Both the position numbers and the translations under genes were made by a program. This document shows, piece by piece, positions 25,047 through 32,493 of a DNA stretch of 64,000 nt (position 1 is the stretch's first letter; each line of letters opens with the position of its first letter). Location: positions 124,001 to 188,000 of the forward strand of contig JAGOBK010000005.1 in NCBI GenBank assembly GCA_017983465.1. The letters are read 5' to 3'. The DNA comes from Crocinitomicaceae bacterium. Its GTDB lineage: Bacteria > Bacteroidota > Bacteroidia > Flavobacteriales_D > Crocinitomicaceae. The notes under the pieces are model-generated. The model was not told the DNA's origin, did no database searches, and was given only the letters and a program-made list of their open reading frames with translations.

Positions 25047-25102
25047 TTAACACAATCTTAACTTTCGATTAATTTACGGATTAAAGTGTCGGCGTTCCTT
25101 TG
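25047..25102 (+). promoter_or_regulatory. Putative PhoB-type box (three 11-bp repeats) and -7 element before the TonB-dependent receptor
   Basis: TTAACA at 25047, TTAACT at 25058 and TTAATT at 25069 are spaced exactly 11 bases. Twenty-six bases after the start of the third is TTCCTTTG (25095-25102), one mismatch from TAnnTTTG. OmpR/PhoB-family regulators bind 11-bp direct repeats just upstream of, or replacing, the -35 region. The same geometry recurs before the gene at 28136. Confidence 0.6.
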
Positions 25103-25124
25103 CATCGTGAATTAAACCCGATTT

Positions 25125-27971
25125 ATGAAGACCTATTTTCGCTTTTTTACCTTATTAATTTTCAGTTCTATACAACTCATTTCCTTTGCTCAAACGGGAA
25201 GCATTTCTGGAGTTATTAAGGATAAAAACAACAGTAATCCCTTAGAATCTGCCAAAGTCATGTTGATGGGAGTCAACAAATTGGCTATTTCCGATGCAAC
25301 TGGGGCATTCTCCTTTACTTCTTTAGAACCAGGAACGTATGCATTGGAAGTTCGATTTATGGGATATGTTTCCCAGAAAGTGGAAAACATCATCGTTAAG
25401 TCTGGCGAAAAAACAGAGGTGAATTTTGATATGGACAATGCAACCAAAACAGAAAAAGAATTAAAAGTATTTTTTCAATCTAAACCGAAAGGAGATGCTG
25501 AAATCACTAAAATGCAGCTGAATCAAGGTGGACTTGTCGATGGAATCAATAAAAATACCTTTATCAAAACACCAGATGCGCGTGTATCAGACGTCTTCAA
25601 ACGCATCAGTGGCGCGAGTGTTCAAGATAATAAATTTGTTGTGGTACGCGGATTAAGTGACCGATACAACTTTGCATTGATCAATGGTGCTTCTTTACCA
25701 AGTACAGAAAGTGACCGTAAAGCTTTTGCATTCGATATTTTCCCGTCCAATATGTTGGAAAATCTTTTTGTCATGAAAAGTGCGACACCAGAACTTCCAG
25801 GAGAATTTGCCGGAGGGGTGATCGACATCAAAACATTAGAACCGCGTGATGAAGCGTTTCAAAACATTCAAATTGGTGGCTCATACAATAGCATCAGTAC
25901 TTTCAAAAACTTCAAAACATATACAAGTGGAAACTCCGATATCTTCGGATTGGGATCAAATACACGTCAATTACCAGAGGGACTTCCATCCACTGCGGAA
26001 TTTAATGCGTTAACAAGTGATCAAAAGGCTTCTTTCGCAAAATCAATTCCAAACTCATGGGGTTCAAGTAATATGACTGCAATGCCAAACCTAAGTCTAC
26101 AATACTCGATTGGAAATATGTTTAAATTGAAAAACAAACGAAAATTCGGATATGTTTTTGCTTACTCTTACTCAAATAGCGCTCAATTCAATTATGTAAC
26201 AAGAAGAGAATTCGAAGAGCAAGCGACTGGAGTAGTTACCAAAAATGAATTGCGTGACTCCGCTTACACGCAATCTGTACTTAATACAGGAATGCTCAAT
26301 CTGAAATACCAATTGAATCCCAAAAATGATATTCAATTGAAAACGTTGTACTCTATCAGTGCAGATGACAAAGTGAATACAAGAAATGGTAAACGTGACA
26401 TGGACGTGGAATCTGTGTATAACGAGAAATCTACCAATATCTGGTATACTCAAAATAACCTGTTAAGTACTCAGTTAATAGGTAATCATAGCATCAAAGA
26501 AAAAATCAAGGTTTCTTGGAATACTGGAATTAGTGACATTTCTCGTCAAATTCCTTTCTTAAGACGAACTGTTTACCAACAAGTAGATACGACCTTACCT
26601 TACTTTGCGGTGATTCAAGCAAATGATATTTCTACCCTCGGTGCGGGAAATATGTTTTGGTCGAATTTAGATGAACGCATCTATAGTGGTCGATATGACG
26701 CTTCTTACCAACTTGGAAATGATGAATCGAAAAACTTCTTGAAAGCAGGTGGTATGCACCAATTCAGAACACGTTCATTCGATGCAAGAAACCTAGGATT
26801 CAGTAAATTAGATCCAACAGGTAGCTCTAGCTTCAACTCGAACTTACTTCTTTTACCAGAAGTCCAAATTTTTGCTGCCGAAAATCTTGGCTTAATGGCT
26901 GATGGACAAGGTGGATTCAAATTAGAAGAAGGAACGAATGTAGATGATAGTTACCAAGCTTCATCCTTTTTAAATGCAGGTTACGCAATGATAGATGCGA
27001 GACTTTTGAGCAAGTTAAGAATTGTAACTGGTGCTCGTTTGGAATCGTACAACCAACAATTCCATTACATTGAATTTGGTTCTAACGCACAAAAAGACCT
27101 TGACACAACCGTTGTAGACATTTTACCTTCCATCAATTTAACATATAGCTTCACGAAACGTTTTCAATTCAGAGCAAGTGCTTCTCGAACGTTGTCTCGT
27201 CCTGAATTCCGTGAACTAGCACCATTTACTTTTTATAACTTCCTAAACGATAACTTAACCGCAGGTGATCCAAAATTACAGCGTGCACTTATTAATAACT
27301 ACGATGCGCGTTTAGAATACTTCCCTGGTGAAGGTCAAGTCGTGAGTGTTTCTGGATTCTATAAAGACTTTCAAAATCCAATCGAATTAATCTTGCGCAC
27401 AGGTACATCCGGTACACCAGAATTATACTACAGAAATGTTGGGGCTGTAAAAAGTTATGGTGCCGAAGTTGAGTACCGTATGAAATTGGATTTCCTAAGT
27501 AAAGACACTACTTCTTTTTGGAAAAACTTTACATTCTACACAAACGCTTCACTTATTCGATCGAAAGTTGACTTAAGCGCTGTTTCTGGACAAGCAGAAT
27601 ATCCAAACTCTTCAAGACCCATGCAAGGACAATCACCATTCATTATCAATGCAGGTATTTTTTACTCAAATGAGAATGCACTTAACGTGAGTTTATCGTA
27701 TAATCTTGTTGGGCAGCGTATCGCCATCGCAGGAAGTATTCAAGAACCAAGTGTTTGGGAAAACGGCCGAAACGTATTAGACTTCCAAATTTCTAAAACA
27801 TTCAAAGAAAAATATGAAGTGAAATTAAATGTGAAAGATGCCCTTGCTCAAGACTTAGTATTCTTTCAAGACATTAATAAAAATCAAAAATACGACAAAG
27901 GTGTAGACAGCGCTTGGCAAGAAATTACGTTTGGCCAAACGATCAGCTTGTCTTTGAAATACAAGTTCTAA
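25125..27971 (+). CDS. TonB-dependent outer-membrane receptor with carboxypeptidase-regulatory-like domain
   Basis: A 948-residue receptor that takes up a ligand across the outer membrane using TonB-delivered energy. In order: signal peptide (1-23), CarboxypepD_reg-like beta-sandwich (about 25-105, GSISGVIKDKNNSNPLESAK to GYVSQKV), plug domain (about 125-235, with VFKRISGASVQDN, VVVRGLSDRYNFALING and LPGEFAGGVIDIKT) and a 22-strand barrel ending in SLSLKYKF with an aromatic last residue. No SusD partner follows, so it is not a glycan SusCD pair. The upstream 11-bp repeats and the nearby phoBR suggest a phosphate-compound ligand; this is inference only. Confidence 0.92.
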   Translation: MKTYFRFFTLLIFSSIQLISFAQTGSISGVIKDKNNSNPLESAKVMLMGVNKLAISDATGAFSFTSLEPGTYALEVRFMGYVSQKVENIIVKSGEKTEVNFDMDNATKTEKELKVFFQSKPKGDAEITKMQLNQGGLVDGINKNTFIKTPDARVSDVFKRISGASVQDNKFVVVRGLSDRYNFALINGASLPSTESDRKAFAFDIFPSNMLENLFVMKSATPELPGEFAGGVIDIKTLEPRDEAFQNIQIGGSYNSISTFKNFKTYTSGNSDIFGLGSNTRQLPEGLPSTAEFNALTSDQKASFAKSIPNSWGSSNMTAMPNLSLQYSIGNMFKLKNKRKFGYVFAYSYSNSAQFNYVTRREFEEQATGVVTKNELRDSAYTQSVLNTGMLNLKYQLNPKNDIQLKTLYSISADDKVNTRNGKRDMDVESVYNEKSTNIWYTQNNLLSTQLIGNHSIKEKIKVSWNTGISDISRQIPFLRRTVYQQVDTTLPYFAVIQANDISTLGAGNMFWSNLDERIYSGRYDASYQLGNDESKNFLKAGGMHQFRTRSFDARNLGFSKLDPTGSSSFNSNLLLLPEVQIFAAENLGLMADGQGGFKLEEGTNVDDSYQASSFLNAGYAMIDARLLSKLRIVTGARLESYNQQFHYIEFGSNAQKDLDTTVVDILPSINLTYSFTKRFQFRASASRTLSRPEFRELAPFTFYNFLNDNLTAGDPKLQRALINNYDARLEYFPGEGQVVSVSGFYKDFQNPIELILRTGTSGTPELYYRNVGAVKSYGAEVEYRMKLDFLSKDTTSFWKNFTFYTNASLIRSKVDLSAVSGQAEYPNSSRPMQGQSPFIINAGIFYSNENALNVSLSYNLVGQRIAIAGSIQEPSVWENGRNVLDFQISKTFKEKYEVKLNVKDALAQDLVFFQDINKNQKYDKGVDSAWQEITFGQTISLSLKYKF

Positions 27972-27995
27972 TTCTTTGTTATCGATCTATTTATG

Positions 27996-28022
27996 AAAAA
28001 GCGGCTTATGCCGCTTTTTTTT
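27996..28022 (+). terminator. Rho-independent terminator after the TonB-dependent receptor
   Basis: AAAAAGCGGC (27996-28005), TTAT loop, GCCGCTTTTT (28010-28019) with further Ts. Confidence 0.9.
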
Positions 28023-28047
28023 GTTTGTTAACATTGAAACACATTCC

Positions 28048-28114
28048 TTAACAAACTCTTAAAGTAGATTTAAGGGTGCTATAACGTTAGTACTTCAATT
28101 CCATCGGAACTTTG
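28048..28114 (+). promoter_or_regulatory. Putative PhoB-type box (three or four 11-bp repeats) and -7 element before the beta-helix T9SS gene
   Basis: TTAACA (28048), TTAAAG (28059), TTAAGG (28070) and a weaker ATAACG (28081) follow at exact 11-base steps. GAACTTTG (28107-28114), one base from TAnnTTTG, begins 26 bases after the start of the last repeat, the same spacing as at the receptor promoter (25069 to 25095). The start codon is 22 bases after the -7 element. Confidence 0.6.
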
Positions 28115-28135: not shown

Positions 28136-30691
28136 ATGAAAAAGAATTACTTACTATTCGCAGCATTACTTGCAAGCACCATGTTAAGTGCGCAAGATGC
28201 ATTTTGGTCAGTGACCAACTACAAAGGTGCTTTTCCGGTAACGGACAACACACCTGCTACAGACTGGACATCAGGATGGTCAAATTTCGATCCTGAAAAC
28301 ACAGTTTATCCAGCAACAATTACAACTGCATCAGCAGACATTACGACCAACACAACTTGGAGTGGTGTGGTGAAGTTGCAAAACAAAATTTATGTTAAAA
28401 ACAATGCGACATTAACAATTGCTCCAGGAACAATCATTCGTGGAGATAAGTTAACCCAAGCAACACTTATCATCACTCGTGGAGCTAAGTTAATTGCAGA
28501 CGGAACAGCTAGTAATCCAATTATTTTCACTTCAAACGAAGCGGTAGGTTCTCGCAACGAAGGTGACTGGGGTGGTGTAGTGATGTTAGGACTTGCTAAA
28601 AACAACCAGCCTGGAGGTGTAGCTAACATTGAAGGAATTGTTCCAACAACAGATACTCAATTCGGTGGTAACTTTGATAATGATAACTCCGGAATCGTTC
28701 GTTACGTTAGAATTGAATTCGCTGGGATCGCATTGGAGCCAAACAAAGAAGTAAATGGTATTACATTTGGTTCAATTGGTAGTGGTACAATCGTAGACAA
28801 CGTTCAAGTTTCTTTTAGTGGTGATGACTCTTTCGAGTGGTTTGGTGGAACAGTTAACTGTAAACACTTAATCGCATACAGAGGATTAGACGATGATTTC
28901 GATACTGACTTTGGTTACAGAGGAAAAGTTCAATTCTTCTTGTCAATTCGTGACAAAGATTTATTTGATGCACCGGGAGACTCTAATTCATTTGAATCAG
29001 ATAACGATGCAGCTGGATCTACAGCTCAACCTAAAACTGCTCCAATTTTCTCTAATGGTACCATCGTTGGTCCAAAAGGAAATGGAACAATTGCTTTACC
29101 TGTTGGAGAGAAATTTGAAAAATCATTCCGTTTGAGAAGAAACACAGCTACCTCTGTATTCAACACATTGACAACTGGATGGGAAAAAGGACTTTCTATC
29201 GAAGGAACAGCAGTAGTAAACAACGTGAACGGAGATACATTGGTTTTCGCACACAACAATACGGTTAACTACGCAAACAACACAAATACGATCTACAACG
29301 CTGGAACAAGTGGTGGTGCTGCTTCAACTTCTGCTTTCTACACTTCTTTCTGGGGTGCTGATGGAAATGACTCTACACAAACAATTGCGCAAATCAACTG
29401 GGTAAATTTATTCCCTGCATTAGGTGTAACTCCGGATGCTCGTTTAGGTGCAGGTTCAGTGGCTGGTTCAGGTGCGAACTTCATGAATGCTAAATTCTAC
29501 AGTGTTGCCGTTCCAACAACAAGTACTGCTTCTTATACATACTGTGCTGGTGCTACAGCTTCTGCTTTAACAGCAAATGCTTCTTTGGGTAACACATTAC
29601 GTTGGTATACGCAAGCAACAGGTGGTACGTTTACAACAACTGCTCCAACACCTTCAACAACAACTGCTGGTTCATTTACATATTATGTAAGTCAAGCGAA
29701 TGCAAACAATGATGAAAGTCAGCGCATCGCAATTACAATTACTGTAAATGCATTACCTGCGACACCAACAATCACTGCTAACGGAGCAACAACGTTCTGT
29801 ACAGGTGGATCTGTAGATTTAACTTCAAGTGCTGCAACTGGTAACGTTTGGACTACAACAGCTACTTCTGCCTCTATTACAGTAACAACTTCTGGTTCTT
29901 ACTCAGTAACAGTAACAGACGTTAATGGATGTGCTGCAACTTCTGCTGCAACAACTGTAAACGTGTCTAATGCTCCAGCTCCAACAATCAATGCGACAGC
30001 AACACAAGCTTGTGAAGGAGATGTAGTAACAATTACCGCTTCAACTTCTGATAGCTACTTATGGTCAACTGGTGCTACTACACAAAGTATTGATGTAACT
30101 GCAACTGCTGCGAACGTGAACGTTGTAACAACAAATGCAAATGCATGTAACGGTGTTGGTGCTTCAGCTCCAATTACTGTAACATTCAACGCAACTCCAA
30201 CTGCTGCTGGTACAATGACATTAGCTGGAAATGTTGCCACATTTACCAATACATCAACTGGAGCAACTTCTTACTCTTGGGATTTTGGTGACTTCACAAA
30301 CTCTTCTGCTACTGCACCAGCTCACGCTTATGCTGTAAATGGAACATACACAGTTGTTTTAACTGCGATCAACGGAAACTGTACAGATACGACAATCTTC
30401 TTAGTTGACGTAACGGTTGGATTAAACGAATTGGCTTCAAGTTCAAACTTGACAATCTTCCCTAATCCAGCTAACGAAACAGTAAACATTTCTTTCGAAC
30501 AAAACACAAATGACCTTATTCAAATCGAATTAATCGATGCAACAGGTCGCGTAATTGCTCAAGAGAATTCTCTTGAAATCGGAACTAATAACGTTTCATT
30601 CGAAGTAACGAATCTTTCCTCTGGATTCTACACAGTACGTTTGACTAACGCAAATGGTACTGAGAATCAGAAATTGATGATTCAAAAATAA
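28136..30691 (+). CDS. T9SS-exported beta-helix/PKD surface protein, probably phosphate-starvation induced
   Basis: An 851-residue protein with a signal peptide (1-19, ending LSAQ). Residues about 60-460 have a right-handed beta-helix character (KIYVKNNATLTIAPGTIIRG, then GDWGGVVMLG and IVRYVRIEFAG). An Ig-like segment (about 465-550, YTYCAGATASALTAN onward) and further Ig-like units follow, then a PKD domain (about 680-760, SYSWDFGDFTNSSATAPAHAY) and a T9SS type A sorting domain (last ~80 residues, LTIFPNPANETVNISF to NQKLMIQK). It is predicted to be surface-attached or released. The substrate is unknown. The promoter shares the 11-bp repeat array of the receptor gene. Confidence 0.82.
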   Translation: MKKNYLLFAALLASTMLSAQDAFWSVTNYKGAFPVTDNTPATDWTSGWSNFDPENTVYPATITTASADITTNTTWSGVVKLQNKIYVKNNATLTIAPGTIIRGDKLTQATLIITRGAKLIADGTASNPIIFTSNEAVGSRNEGDWGGVVMLGLAKNNQPGGVANIEGIVPTTDTQFGGNFDNDNSGIVRYVRIEFAGIALEPNKEVNGITFGSIGSGTIVDNVQVSFSGDDSFEWFGGTVNCKHLIAYRGLDDDFDTDFGYRGKVQFFLSIRDKDLFDAPGDSNSFESDNDAAGSTAQPKTAPIFSNGTIVGPKGNGTIALPVGEKFEKSFRLRRNTATSVFNTLTTGWEKGLSIEGTAVVNNVNGDTLVFAHNNTVNYANNTNTIYNAGTSGGAASTSAFYTSFWGADGNDSTQTIAQINWVNLFPALGVTPDARLGAGSVAGSGANFMNAKFYSVAVPTTSTASYTYCAGATASALTANASLGNTLRWYTQATGGTFTTTAPTPSTTTAGSFTYYVSQANANNDESQRIAITITVNALPATPTITANGATTFCTGGSVDLTSSAATGNVWTTTATSASITVTTSGSYSVTVTDVNGCAATSAATTVNVSNAPAPTINATATQACEGDVVTITASTSDSYLWSTGATTQSIDVTATAANVNVVTTNANACNGVGASAPITVTFNATPTAAGTMTLAGNVATFTNTSTGATSYSWDFGDFTNSSATAPAHAYAVNGTYTVVLTAINGNCTDTTIFLVDVTVGLNELASSSNLTIFPNPANETVNISFEQNTNDLIQIELIDATGRVIAQENSLEIGTNNVSFEVTNLSSGFYTVRLTNANGTENQKLMIQK

Positions 30692-30706: not shown

Positions 30707-30737
30707 GGCTGCTAGACATAGTCTAGCAGCCTTTTTT
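30707..30737 (+). terminator. Rho-independent terminator between the beta-helix gene and phoB
   Basis: A perfect 11-bp stem GGCTGCTAGAC (30707-30717), ATA loop, GTCTAGCAGCC (30721-30731), then six Ts. It ends only eight bases before the phoB start codon, leaving no room for a phoB promoter after it. Confidence 0.92.
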
Positions 30738-30745
30738 ATACCCCT

Positions 30746-31423
30746 ATGGAAAACTCAAAAGGACATACCATTTTAATCGTTGATGATGAACCAGATATTC
30801 TTGAGTTCCTTTCCTACAATATCCGTAAAGAGGGATTTAAAGTGTACGTCGCATCAAACGGACAAGAAGCGCTGCGAATTGTTCAACAAATAAATCCATC
30901 TCTCATTCTTTTGGATGTCATGATGCCTGTCATGGACGGGATTGAAACCTGTCAAATCATTCGAAAAGACTTGAATCTGAATCAACCAATTATTGCTTTT
31001 TTAACTGCACGTACAGAGGACTATGCTCAAATCGCAGGTTTTGAAGCAGGAGCGGATGATTACATTAACAAACCTATCAGACCTAGGTTATTATTAAGTA
31101 AAATTGAATCCTTACTCAGAAGATCCAAATCTTCTGAAAAACAAATAGAATCAACGATTCAAATTGACCGTGACAGATTCCTTGTTATCGTTAATGGTGA
31201 ATCTTTAACATTGCCAAAAAAGGAATTCGAATTACTCGAATTACTTGCTAGTAGACCAGGAAAAGTATTCAATCGAGATCAAATACTTTCTGTCGTTTGG
31301 GGAAATGAAACCATCGTTGGTGAAAGAACTATCGATGTTCATATTAGAAAATTGCGTGAAAAGCTTGGAGATGACTATATTCGTACCATAAAAGGTGTCG
31401 GATATACCTTCAAGGATAAATGA
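30746..31423 (+). CDS. phoB: PhoB-like response regulator (OmpR family)
   Basis: A 225-residue DNA-binding regulator. The receiver domain spans about 1-120, with the acidic pair D13/D14, phosphoacceptor D57 (LILLDVMMP), the Thr in FLTART and the Lys in INKPI. The winged-helix DNA-binding domain spans about 130-225 (LPKKEFELLELLASRPGKVF, DVHIRKLREKLG, IRTIKGVGYTF). Together with the overlapping kinase gene it matches PhoB/PhoR of Bacteroidota, whose output is the phosphate-starvation response. Other OmpR-family regulators look similar, so the name rests also on the neighbouring PstS-like gene and the 11-bp repeats. Its start lies just after a terminator, so expression may rely on read-through or a promoter within the preceding coding sequence. 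Confidence 0.82.
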   Translation: MENSKGHTILIVDDEPDILEFLSYNIRKEGFKVYVASNGQEALRIVQQINPSLILLDVMMPVMDGIETCQIIRKDLNLNQPIIAFLTARTEDYAQIAGFEAGADDYINKPIRPRLLLSKIESLLRRSKSSEKQIESTIQIDRDRFLVIVNGESLTLPKKEFELLELLASRPGKVFNRDQILSVVWGNETIVGERTIDVHIRKLREKLGDDYIRTIKGVGYTFKDK

Positions 31424-32493
31424 AAACAGCAAGACCTAGCATTTTAATTTTTTACGGGAGTTTAGCATTTATGCTCATTAGCTTCCTATTGACTCTTCTT
31501 GTTCACAATAGTATCCTCGCATTGAGTACAAACCTAATTATCGCCATTCCCCTTTTTTCAGGCTTATTTGCTTACCTCGTTTTCTATTTCCTGTTAAAAG
31601 GATTTATTCAATACCGACTTTCTCTTATCTATCGATCCATTCAGATCAAACAGCCCGAGAATATCACCTTCGCTAAATCAATTGATTCCCTCATGGAAGA
31701 TGCCGAAAAAAATGTGGCAGAGTGGAAAGAAAATAGCAGCATTGAAATCTCCAAACTAAAAGAACAAGCTGAATTTCGTAAAGAATTTCTTGGCAATTTA
31801 GCCCACGAACTTAAAACACCCGTTTTTTCCATTCAAGGATACTTACTCACCCTACTTGACGGTGGACTTGAAGACCCTTCTGTTAATCGAGCATTTCTTG
31901 AAAGGGCATCGAAATCCACAGATCGAATCACTGGAATTCTGGAGGACCTCGATCAAATTACCCGAATGGAAACAGAGAATCTTCGACTCGAAATCCGATC
32001 ATTTGATATCGTAGAATTACTGAAAGAATCTTTTGAGACATTCGAACTTATTGCCAAAGAAAAAAATTACCAATTACTTTTTGAGAAAACGTTTACGTCC
32101 AAATACGTGAACGCTGACCGCAATAAACTCGGTCAGGTATTTACAAACTTGATTTCAAATGCCATCTCATATGGAAAGGAAAATGGAATTTTACTTGTTT
32201 CCATTTTGGATATTAACGACCACTACCTCCTAGAGTTCAAGGATAATGGTCCCGGAATTGAACCTCATCACCTCTCCCGCTTATTCGAACGCTTTTACCG
32301 AGTAGAAAAAAGCAGAAACCGAAACGAAGGTGGGTCAGGGTTAGGACTATCCATTGCCAAACACATTGTCGAATCTCACGGTCAATCAATTCAAGTGAAA
32401 AGTCAAGTCGGCATCGGAACAACATTCGTGTTAACCGTCGAGAAAAGTAAAAATACAGGCCCTGTAAGCTCGCGTGGTATTCCTTTGAAATAA
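31420..32493 (+). CDS. phoR: PhoR-like membrane sensor histidine kinase
   Basis: A 357-residue kinase overlapping phoB by four bases. Two adjacent membrane helices (about residues 8-28 and 34-54) with almost no periplasmic loop are followed by a helical linker, the dimerisation/phosphoacceptor domain with H129 in GNLAHELKTPVFSIQGYL, and an HATPase domain (about 220-350) with N box (NLISNAISYG), G1 (FKDNGPGIE), F box (LFERFYRVEKSR) and G2 (GGSGLGLSIAKHI). The lack of a sensory periplasmic domain is normal for PhoR, which senses phosphate through the Pst transporter and PhoU. No phoU or pstCAB is in this window. Confidence 0.82.
   Translation: MKTARPSILIFYGSLAFMLISFLLTLLVHNSILALSTNLIIAIPLFSGLFAYLVFYFLLKGFIQYRLSLIYRSIQIKQPENITFAKSIDSLMEDAEKNVAEWKENSSIEISKLKEQAEFRKEFLGNLAHELKTPVFSIQGYLLTLLDGGLEDPSVNRAFLERASKSTDRITGILEDLDQITRMETENLRLEIRSFDIVELLKESFETFELIAKEKNYQLLFEKTFTSKYVNADRNKLGQVFTNLISNAISYGKENGILLVSILDINDHYLLEFKDNGPGIEPHHLSRLFERFYRVEKSRNRNEGGSGLGLSIAKHIVESHGQSIQVKSQVGIGTTFVLTVEKSKNTGPVSSRGIPLK

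Follow-up and report, generated by a model that had tools for sequence, protein, structure and literature searches.

Two arrays of TTAA half-sites at a strict 11-base pitch, one before a TonB-dependent receptor gene and one before the gene for a secreted beta-helix protein of a Crocinitomicaceae bacterium, are very probably Pho operators, at which PhoB would activate both promoters at low phosphate. What the genomes compared here show directly is that the repeats exist, that their pitch and their phase relative to the -7 element are fixed, and that they are conserved and associated with phosphate genes. In the following, the window is the whole stretch of DNA that was analysed (64,000 nucleotides).

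Arrays and genes of the window

Array 1 (25047..25079, plus strand) consists of three TTAA half-sites in exact 11-base steps (TTAACA at 25047, TTAACT at 25058 and TTAATT at 25069), which start at -52, -41 and -30 from the TTTG of the -7 element of the receptor gene, TTCCTTTG (25095..25102, plus strand). The CTTTG of this element is invariant in the anchored alignment of related promoters. A fourth TTAA (25081..25084, plus strand) follows 12 bases after the third and is one base off register; the in-register position at -19 is partly kept in relatives, with T at -18 and A at -16. Array 2 (28048..28086, plus strand) has three TTAA units and one ATAA, again in 11-base steps (TTAACA at 28048, TTAAAG at 28059, TTAAGG at 28070 and ATAACG at 28081), at -63, -52, -41 and -30 from the TTTG of GAACTTTG (28107..28114, plus strand), the -7 element of the beta-helix gene.

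The repeat coordinates of the original prediction were correct when rechecked in the window. Its description of the units as TTAAnn hexamers at 11-base steps holds for six of them, but ATAACG at 28081 is an imperfect copy. The distance of 26 bases that it gave from the last repeat to the -7 elements at 25095 and 28107 is exact in both cases, and the distance to TTTG is 30 bases. A Pho box is expected to have at least two tandem direct repeats at 11-bp pitch and a fixed place just upstream of the core promoter, where it replaces the -35/-33 element. The two arrays have three and four units, pitch 11 is exclusive, and the last unit starts 30 bases before TTTG.

The receptor gene (25125..27971, plus strand) codes for 948 aa with the Pfam domains PF00593, PF07715 and PF13620. 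It is followed by an intrinsic terminator (27995..28020, plus strand) and, therefore, the beta-helix gene needs its own promoter. The latter gene (28136..30691, plus strand) encodes a T9SS-secreted protein of 851 aa with a Por_Secre_tail domain (PF18962), whose N-terminal part has a homologue in FII, a pectin-lyase-fold lipoprotein of Flavobacterium (E 8e-30 and 36.9% identity over 187 aa with the FII of a F. johnsoniae relative). A strong intrinsic terminator (30707..30731, plus strand) separates it from phoB. From the two terminators, it seems that the receptor and the beta-helix protein are transcribed as separate units, with one array for each.

Directly downstream are the genes for a PhoB-type response regulator of 225 aa, the proposed binder (30746..31423, plus strand; Response_reg and Trans_reg_C), and for a PhoR/PnpS-type sensor kinase of 357 aa (31420..32493, plus strand; HisKA and HATPase_c). 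The phoB/phoR pair of the original prediction is confirmed as far as a regulator and a kinase gene are concerned, but both products score below the curated cut-offs for PhoB and PhoR. The top NCBIfam model of the regulator, RespRegPhoBBctds, gave 204.5 bits (cut-off 270) and TIGR02154 gave 201.7 (cut-off 296.2); PhoB models are its best matches, although a PhoB equivalog would have to score above the curated cut-off. The best matches of the kinase, PnpS and PhoR, were both under their curated cut-offs as well. In the window, phoB is without an array of its own. The strong terminator ends 15 bases before its start codon. Both points, like the scores below the cut-offs, weigh against the reading as a Pho operator. 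Pst-type PstB was absent from this genome in a family search and, hence, a pstS promoter can be tested only in other genomes.

Rarity of the arrays in the genome

Exact TTAA triplets at pitch 11 occur at only two places in the 64-kb window, array 1 and array 2, and none occur there when the pitch is set to another value from 7 to 17. First-order random sequences of the same composition gave 0.03 triplets per 64 kb and never two in 200 trials. At the level of the genome (2.56 Mb), for which all statements rest on pattern searches, there are three exact pitch-11 triplets, two of which are arrays 1 and 2. The strict pattern TTAA-N7-TTAA-N7-nTAA-N26-TTTG is matched by arrays 1 and 2 only. The third triplet is unrelated and lies in A+T-rich DNA. 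Together with a few chance-like matches in the Flavobacterium pattern search described below, it is what speaks for chance repeats in A+T-rich sequence as the origin of the arrays, but when the two intergenic regions were randomised as a pair 20,000 times, a triplet never appeared in both. Searching the genome with two mismatches allowed gave 44 matches compared to 77 with the reversed pattern, so that no further members can be claimed in this genome in that way.

Two other candidates were given up. The array before an exbB-like gene (36572 of the window; TTCA/TTAA/TTAA) is out of register with any -7 element and was dropped; the one before a CotH gene (C2:57441) has 27, not 30, bases to TTTG and was set aside.

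Conservation in the genus

In a search for PhoB, all of 60 genomes had a PhoB-like match, and the best loci were fetched. The genes for receptor, beta-helix protein, PhoB and PhoR are adjacent in most genus loci of sufficient length. The lead promoter was defined as the receptor promoter or, where receptor and beta-helix genes are absent, as the phoB promoter. The array was present at at least 11 of 12 bases in 19/19 lead promoters (other pitches, maximally 2; shuffles, 0.35) and as an exact triplet in 16/19 (other pitches, maximally 1; shuffles, 0.10); among the beta-helix promoters of the genus, 14 of 16 have it at the former threshold. This conservation refutes chance, which retains practically no probability. 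As the original prediction had demanded, the arrays are thus kept upstream of orthologues, namely, in the genus, at the promoters of receptor, beta-helix and phoB genes.

When the promoters are aligned by their TTTG, there is little or no variation in the half-sites at -52, -41 and -30 (for beta-helix promoters also at -63), whereas the spacers differ. TTTG lies 30 bases past the last TTAA in nearly all promoters of the genus, and the strict pattern was found in 72 of 86 genus genomes (107 sites versus 25 for the reversed pattern). A conserved, A+T-rich upstream sequence of the UP-element type, with no specific operator, could in principle be seen in the same place, since TTAA is A+T-rich and located just upstream of the core promoter. 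However, the enrichment is at pitch 11 only and not at 7-10 or 12-20, the spacers drift around half-sites that do not change, and other promoters of the same loci carry arrays far less often, which makes such a sequence a very improbable explanation.

In L056, L063, L066 and L073, neither receptor nor beta-helix gene is found beside phoB and phoB itself directly follows the array. These phoB promoters resemble the receptor promoters of relatives; in L056, L063 and L066, OmpA is the next gene upstream of array and phoB. The nearest relatives by PhoB (L051 and L052, 98% and 92%) have kept the same array before a receptor that is only 40% identical. It seems that the receptor has been replaced while its promoter was conserved.

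Elsewhere in this genome (C4:25590-25699; L019, L295), TTAA units at 11-base pitch form a longer array upstream of a phosphate-selective porin gene (PF07396), and a DUF47/PhoU_div gene is encoded divergently from the porin. The units of this array are 13 and 24 bases from TTTG, a shift of about half a helical turn relative to the remaining arrays, and several genus relatives show the same shift.

Arrays before phosphate genes outside the genus

In the order, hardly any genome encodes a Pst-type PstB (5 of 150 scored above the family cut-off), compared to 37 of 119 in the class. The scan outside the genus comprised Pst loci, phoB loci at the level of the order and six Flavobacterium loci. The genomes are related and not independent samples, and the counts are therefore descriptive and not formal probabilities: arrays at at least 11 of 12 bases precede 40 of 114 pstS, porin, phoB, receptor or beta-helix genes compared to 26 of 394 for the remaining genes; pitches other than 11 gave 0 to 4 in the same 114 promoters; and 23 promoters have a distance to TTTG of residue 8 mod 11, each other residue being found in at most 3.

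Arrays were found before pstS (L173, L175, L233, L235, L239, L254, L257 and L264), before Porin_O_P-like genes (L177, L239, L245 and L254) and also before phoB and beta-helix genes. The unlabelled genes among the others that have in-phase arrays are mostly Porin_O_P genes and a Na/Pi cotransporter gene. A Pho box should precede the phosphate genes (pst, porin, phoBR) of related genomes, and this is what we see; the original prediction had proposed to look upstream of pstS, and arrays lie there and before phosphate porins in other families. Many class-level pst promoters that were scanned are without a TTAA array and the box is, hence, not universal. By eye, the pst promoters of L238 and L248 have GTAAC-like repeats at a pitch of about 11 bases, possibly a variant box.

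Phosphate depletion in Flavobacterium

Close relatives of F. johnsoniae, found via the SprA sequence of PDB 6h3i, carry a perfect array before the gene for the beta-helix lipoprotein that adjoins phoB, again at a distance of 30 bases from TTTG. The strict pattern was found at this promoter in 3 of 6 Flavobacterium genomes; the same search gave the few chance-like matches mentioned above. Upon phosphate depletion of F. johnsoniae, Fjoh_0546 is induced by a log2 value of 9.91 (about 1000-fold), the receptor Fjoh_0545 by 8.02 and PhoB by 3.06 (PMC8115612); the genes of the relatives were equated with Fjoh_0546 and the others by gene order and description, not by the F. johnsoniae sequence. As in the window, genes for a receptor and a pectin-lyase-fold protein lie beside phoBR in this Pho regulon, and in F. 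johnsoniae both are strongly induced when phosphate is lacking. The words motif, promoter and Pho box are absent from the text of PMC8115612. The OprP gene Fjoh_0542 was not induced in F. johnsoniae (PMC8115612) and its counterpart in the close relatives carries an in-phase array, which counts against a simple rule. In the divergent phoB/receptor region of a Flavobacterium (L193, 5605-5850), degenerate nTAA units are seen by eye at the receptor promoter, at about -19, -30, -41, -63 and -74 from TTTG and thus in phase with the arrays.

Which regulator binds

The recognition helix of the window PhoB, RTIDVHIRKLREK, is close to that of E. coli PhoB, RTVDVHIRRLRKA. A PhoB-like paralogue (C13:87356-88006; L002) is 57% identical and its recognition helix, RTIDVHIRKLREK, is identical. 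Its gene is divergent from another response regulator gene. The arrays could, therefore, be operators of the OmpR family that are mainly bound by this paralogue, perhaps a regulator of the kind of Riemerella PhoP, with a signal that is maybe not phosphate alone. The nearly identical DNA-binding domain is in line with this. So is the PhoP of Riemerella anatipestifer, for which PMC9603813 describes 583 DAP-seq peaks, with a comparison to ArcA, and a motif with TTTAACA as its most conserved bases; PhoPR is said there to be upregulated in phosphate starvation. On the other hand, the arrays are located at phoB and phosphate genes across families, no array was found before the paralogue gene itself (C13:87356), and in-phase sites are very few per genome, unlike what is expected of a global regulator. 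We regard the paralogue as an unlikely main binder.

The reading as a real PhoB-type operator, already offered by the original prediction, is supported by the conservation of the arrays and by their association with phosphate genes; we infer that PhoB is the binder, the activator and the contact of sigma. PhoB, whose gene lies just downstream, would in its phosphorylated form bind head to tail with one unit per 11-base turn and occupy three to four TTAA-like half-sites, the last strong one of which starts 30 bases before TTTG. It would there stand in for the missing -33 element and, presumably by contacting sigma, recruit RNA polymerase when phosphate is scarce. In relatives without receptor and beta-helix genes the same promoter would drive phoB directly, and the box would thus be autoregulatory there as well. 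It is tempting to speculate that there is a phase code, in which half-sites at 8 mod 11 upstream of TTTG allow PhoB to replace stereospecifically the -33 contact of the unusual primary sigma factor of the phylum, and in which arrays shifted by half a turn, such as that of the porin in this genome, are read differently, with weak activation or repression as the outcome; this extension is possible but doubtful.

Discussion

The E. coli PhoB box is likewise made of at least two 11-bp direct repeats in place of the -35 element and is bound by an OmpR-family protein with a similar recognition helix, but its half-site is CTGTCAT and its promoter has a -10 element, compared to TTAA and a -7 element here; CTGTCAT is not the half-site of the window arrays. 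The PhoP box of Bacillus subtilis has TTAACA-like repeats at 11-bp pitch, usually four. Half-site and pitch are almost the same as in the window, whereas the B. subtilis promoters are of the sigma-A type. According to a review, in which a TTAACA-like sequence is not given, Pho boxes of several phyla are direct repeats at 11-base pitch. The cyanobacterial SphR box, found before pstS, phoA and nucH, has at least three tandem 8-bp repeats similar to CTTAACCT with 3-bp linkers (PMC1906773), which gives TTAA at 11-bp pitch, as in the window arrays. It differs in phylum and promoter type; the window arrays have a looser flank and keep a fixed distance to a -7 element of the TTTG type. The Riemerella PhoP motif comes from the same phylum as the window arrays and its register to a -7 element is not described in the available part of the paper (PMC9603813). 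The original prediction is correct in that the sequence differs from the E. coli Pho box, and to this we add SphR and Riemerella PhoP as precedents: a TTAA-cored Pho box is a kind already known.

In Bacteroidota, expression studies have described Pho regulons. For Bacteroides fragilis, the available part of PMC3547664 describes binding of PhoB to the pstC promoter by EMSA with a 512-bp fragment in which the site was unmapped. A mapped Bacteroidota Pho box was not found in the open-access literature searched, and such an absence is no proof. What seems to be new is the map of the box across many Bacteroidota genera and its fixed register to the -7 element.

With TTAA-N7-TTAA-N7-nTAA-N26-TTTG, the regulon can be predicted in genomes of this clade, also in those without a Pst transporter. 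The pattern points to the surface receptor and the secreted beta-helix protein as phosphate-acquisition genes, and the arrays are a defined test bed for the activation of the -33/-7 promoters of the phylum by a response regulator.
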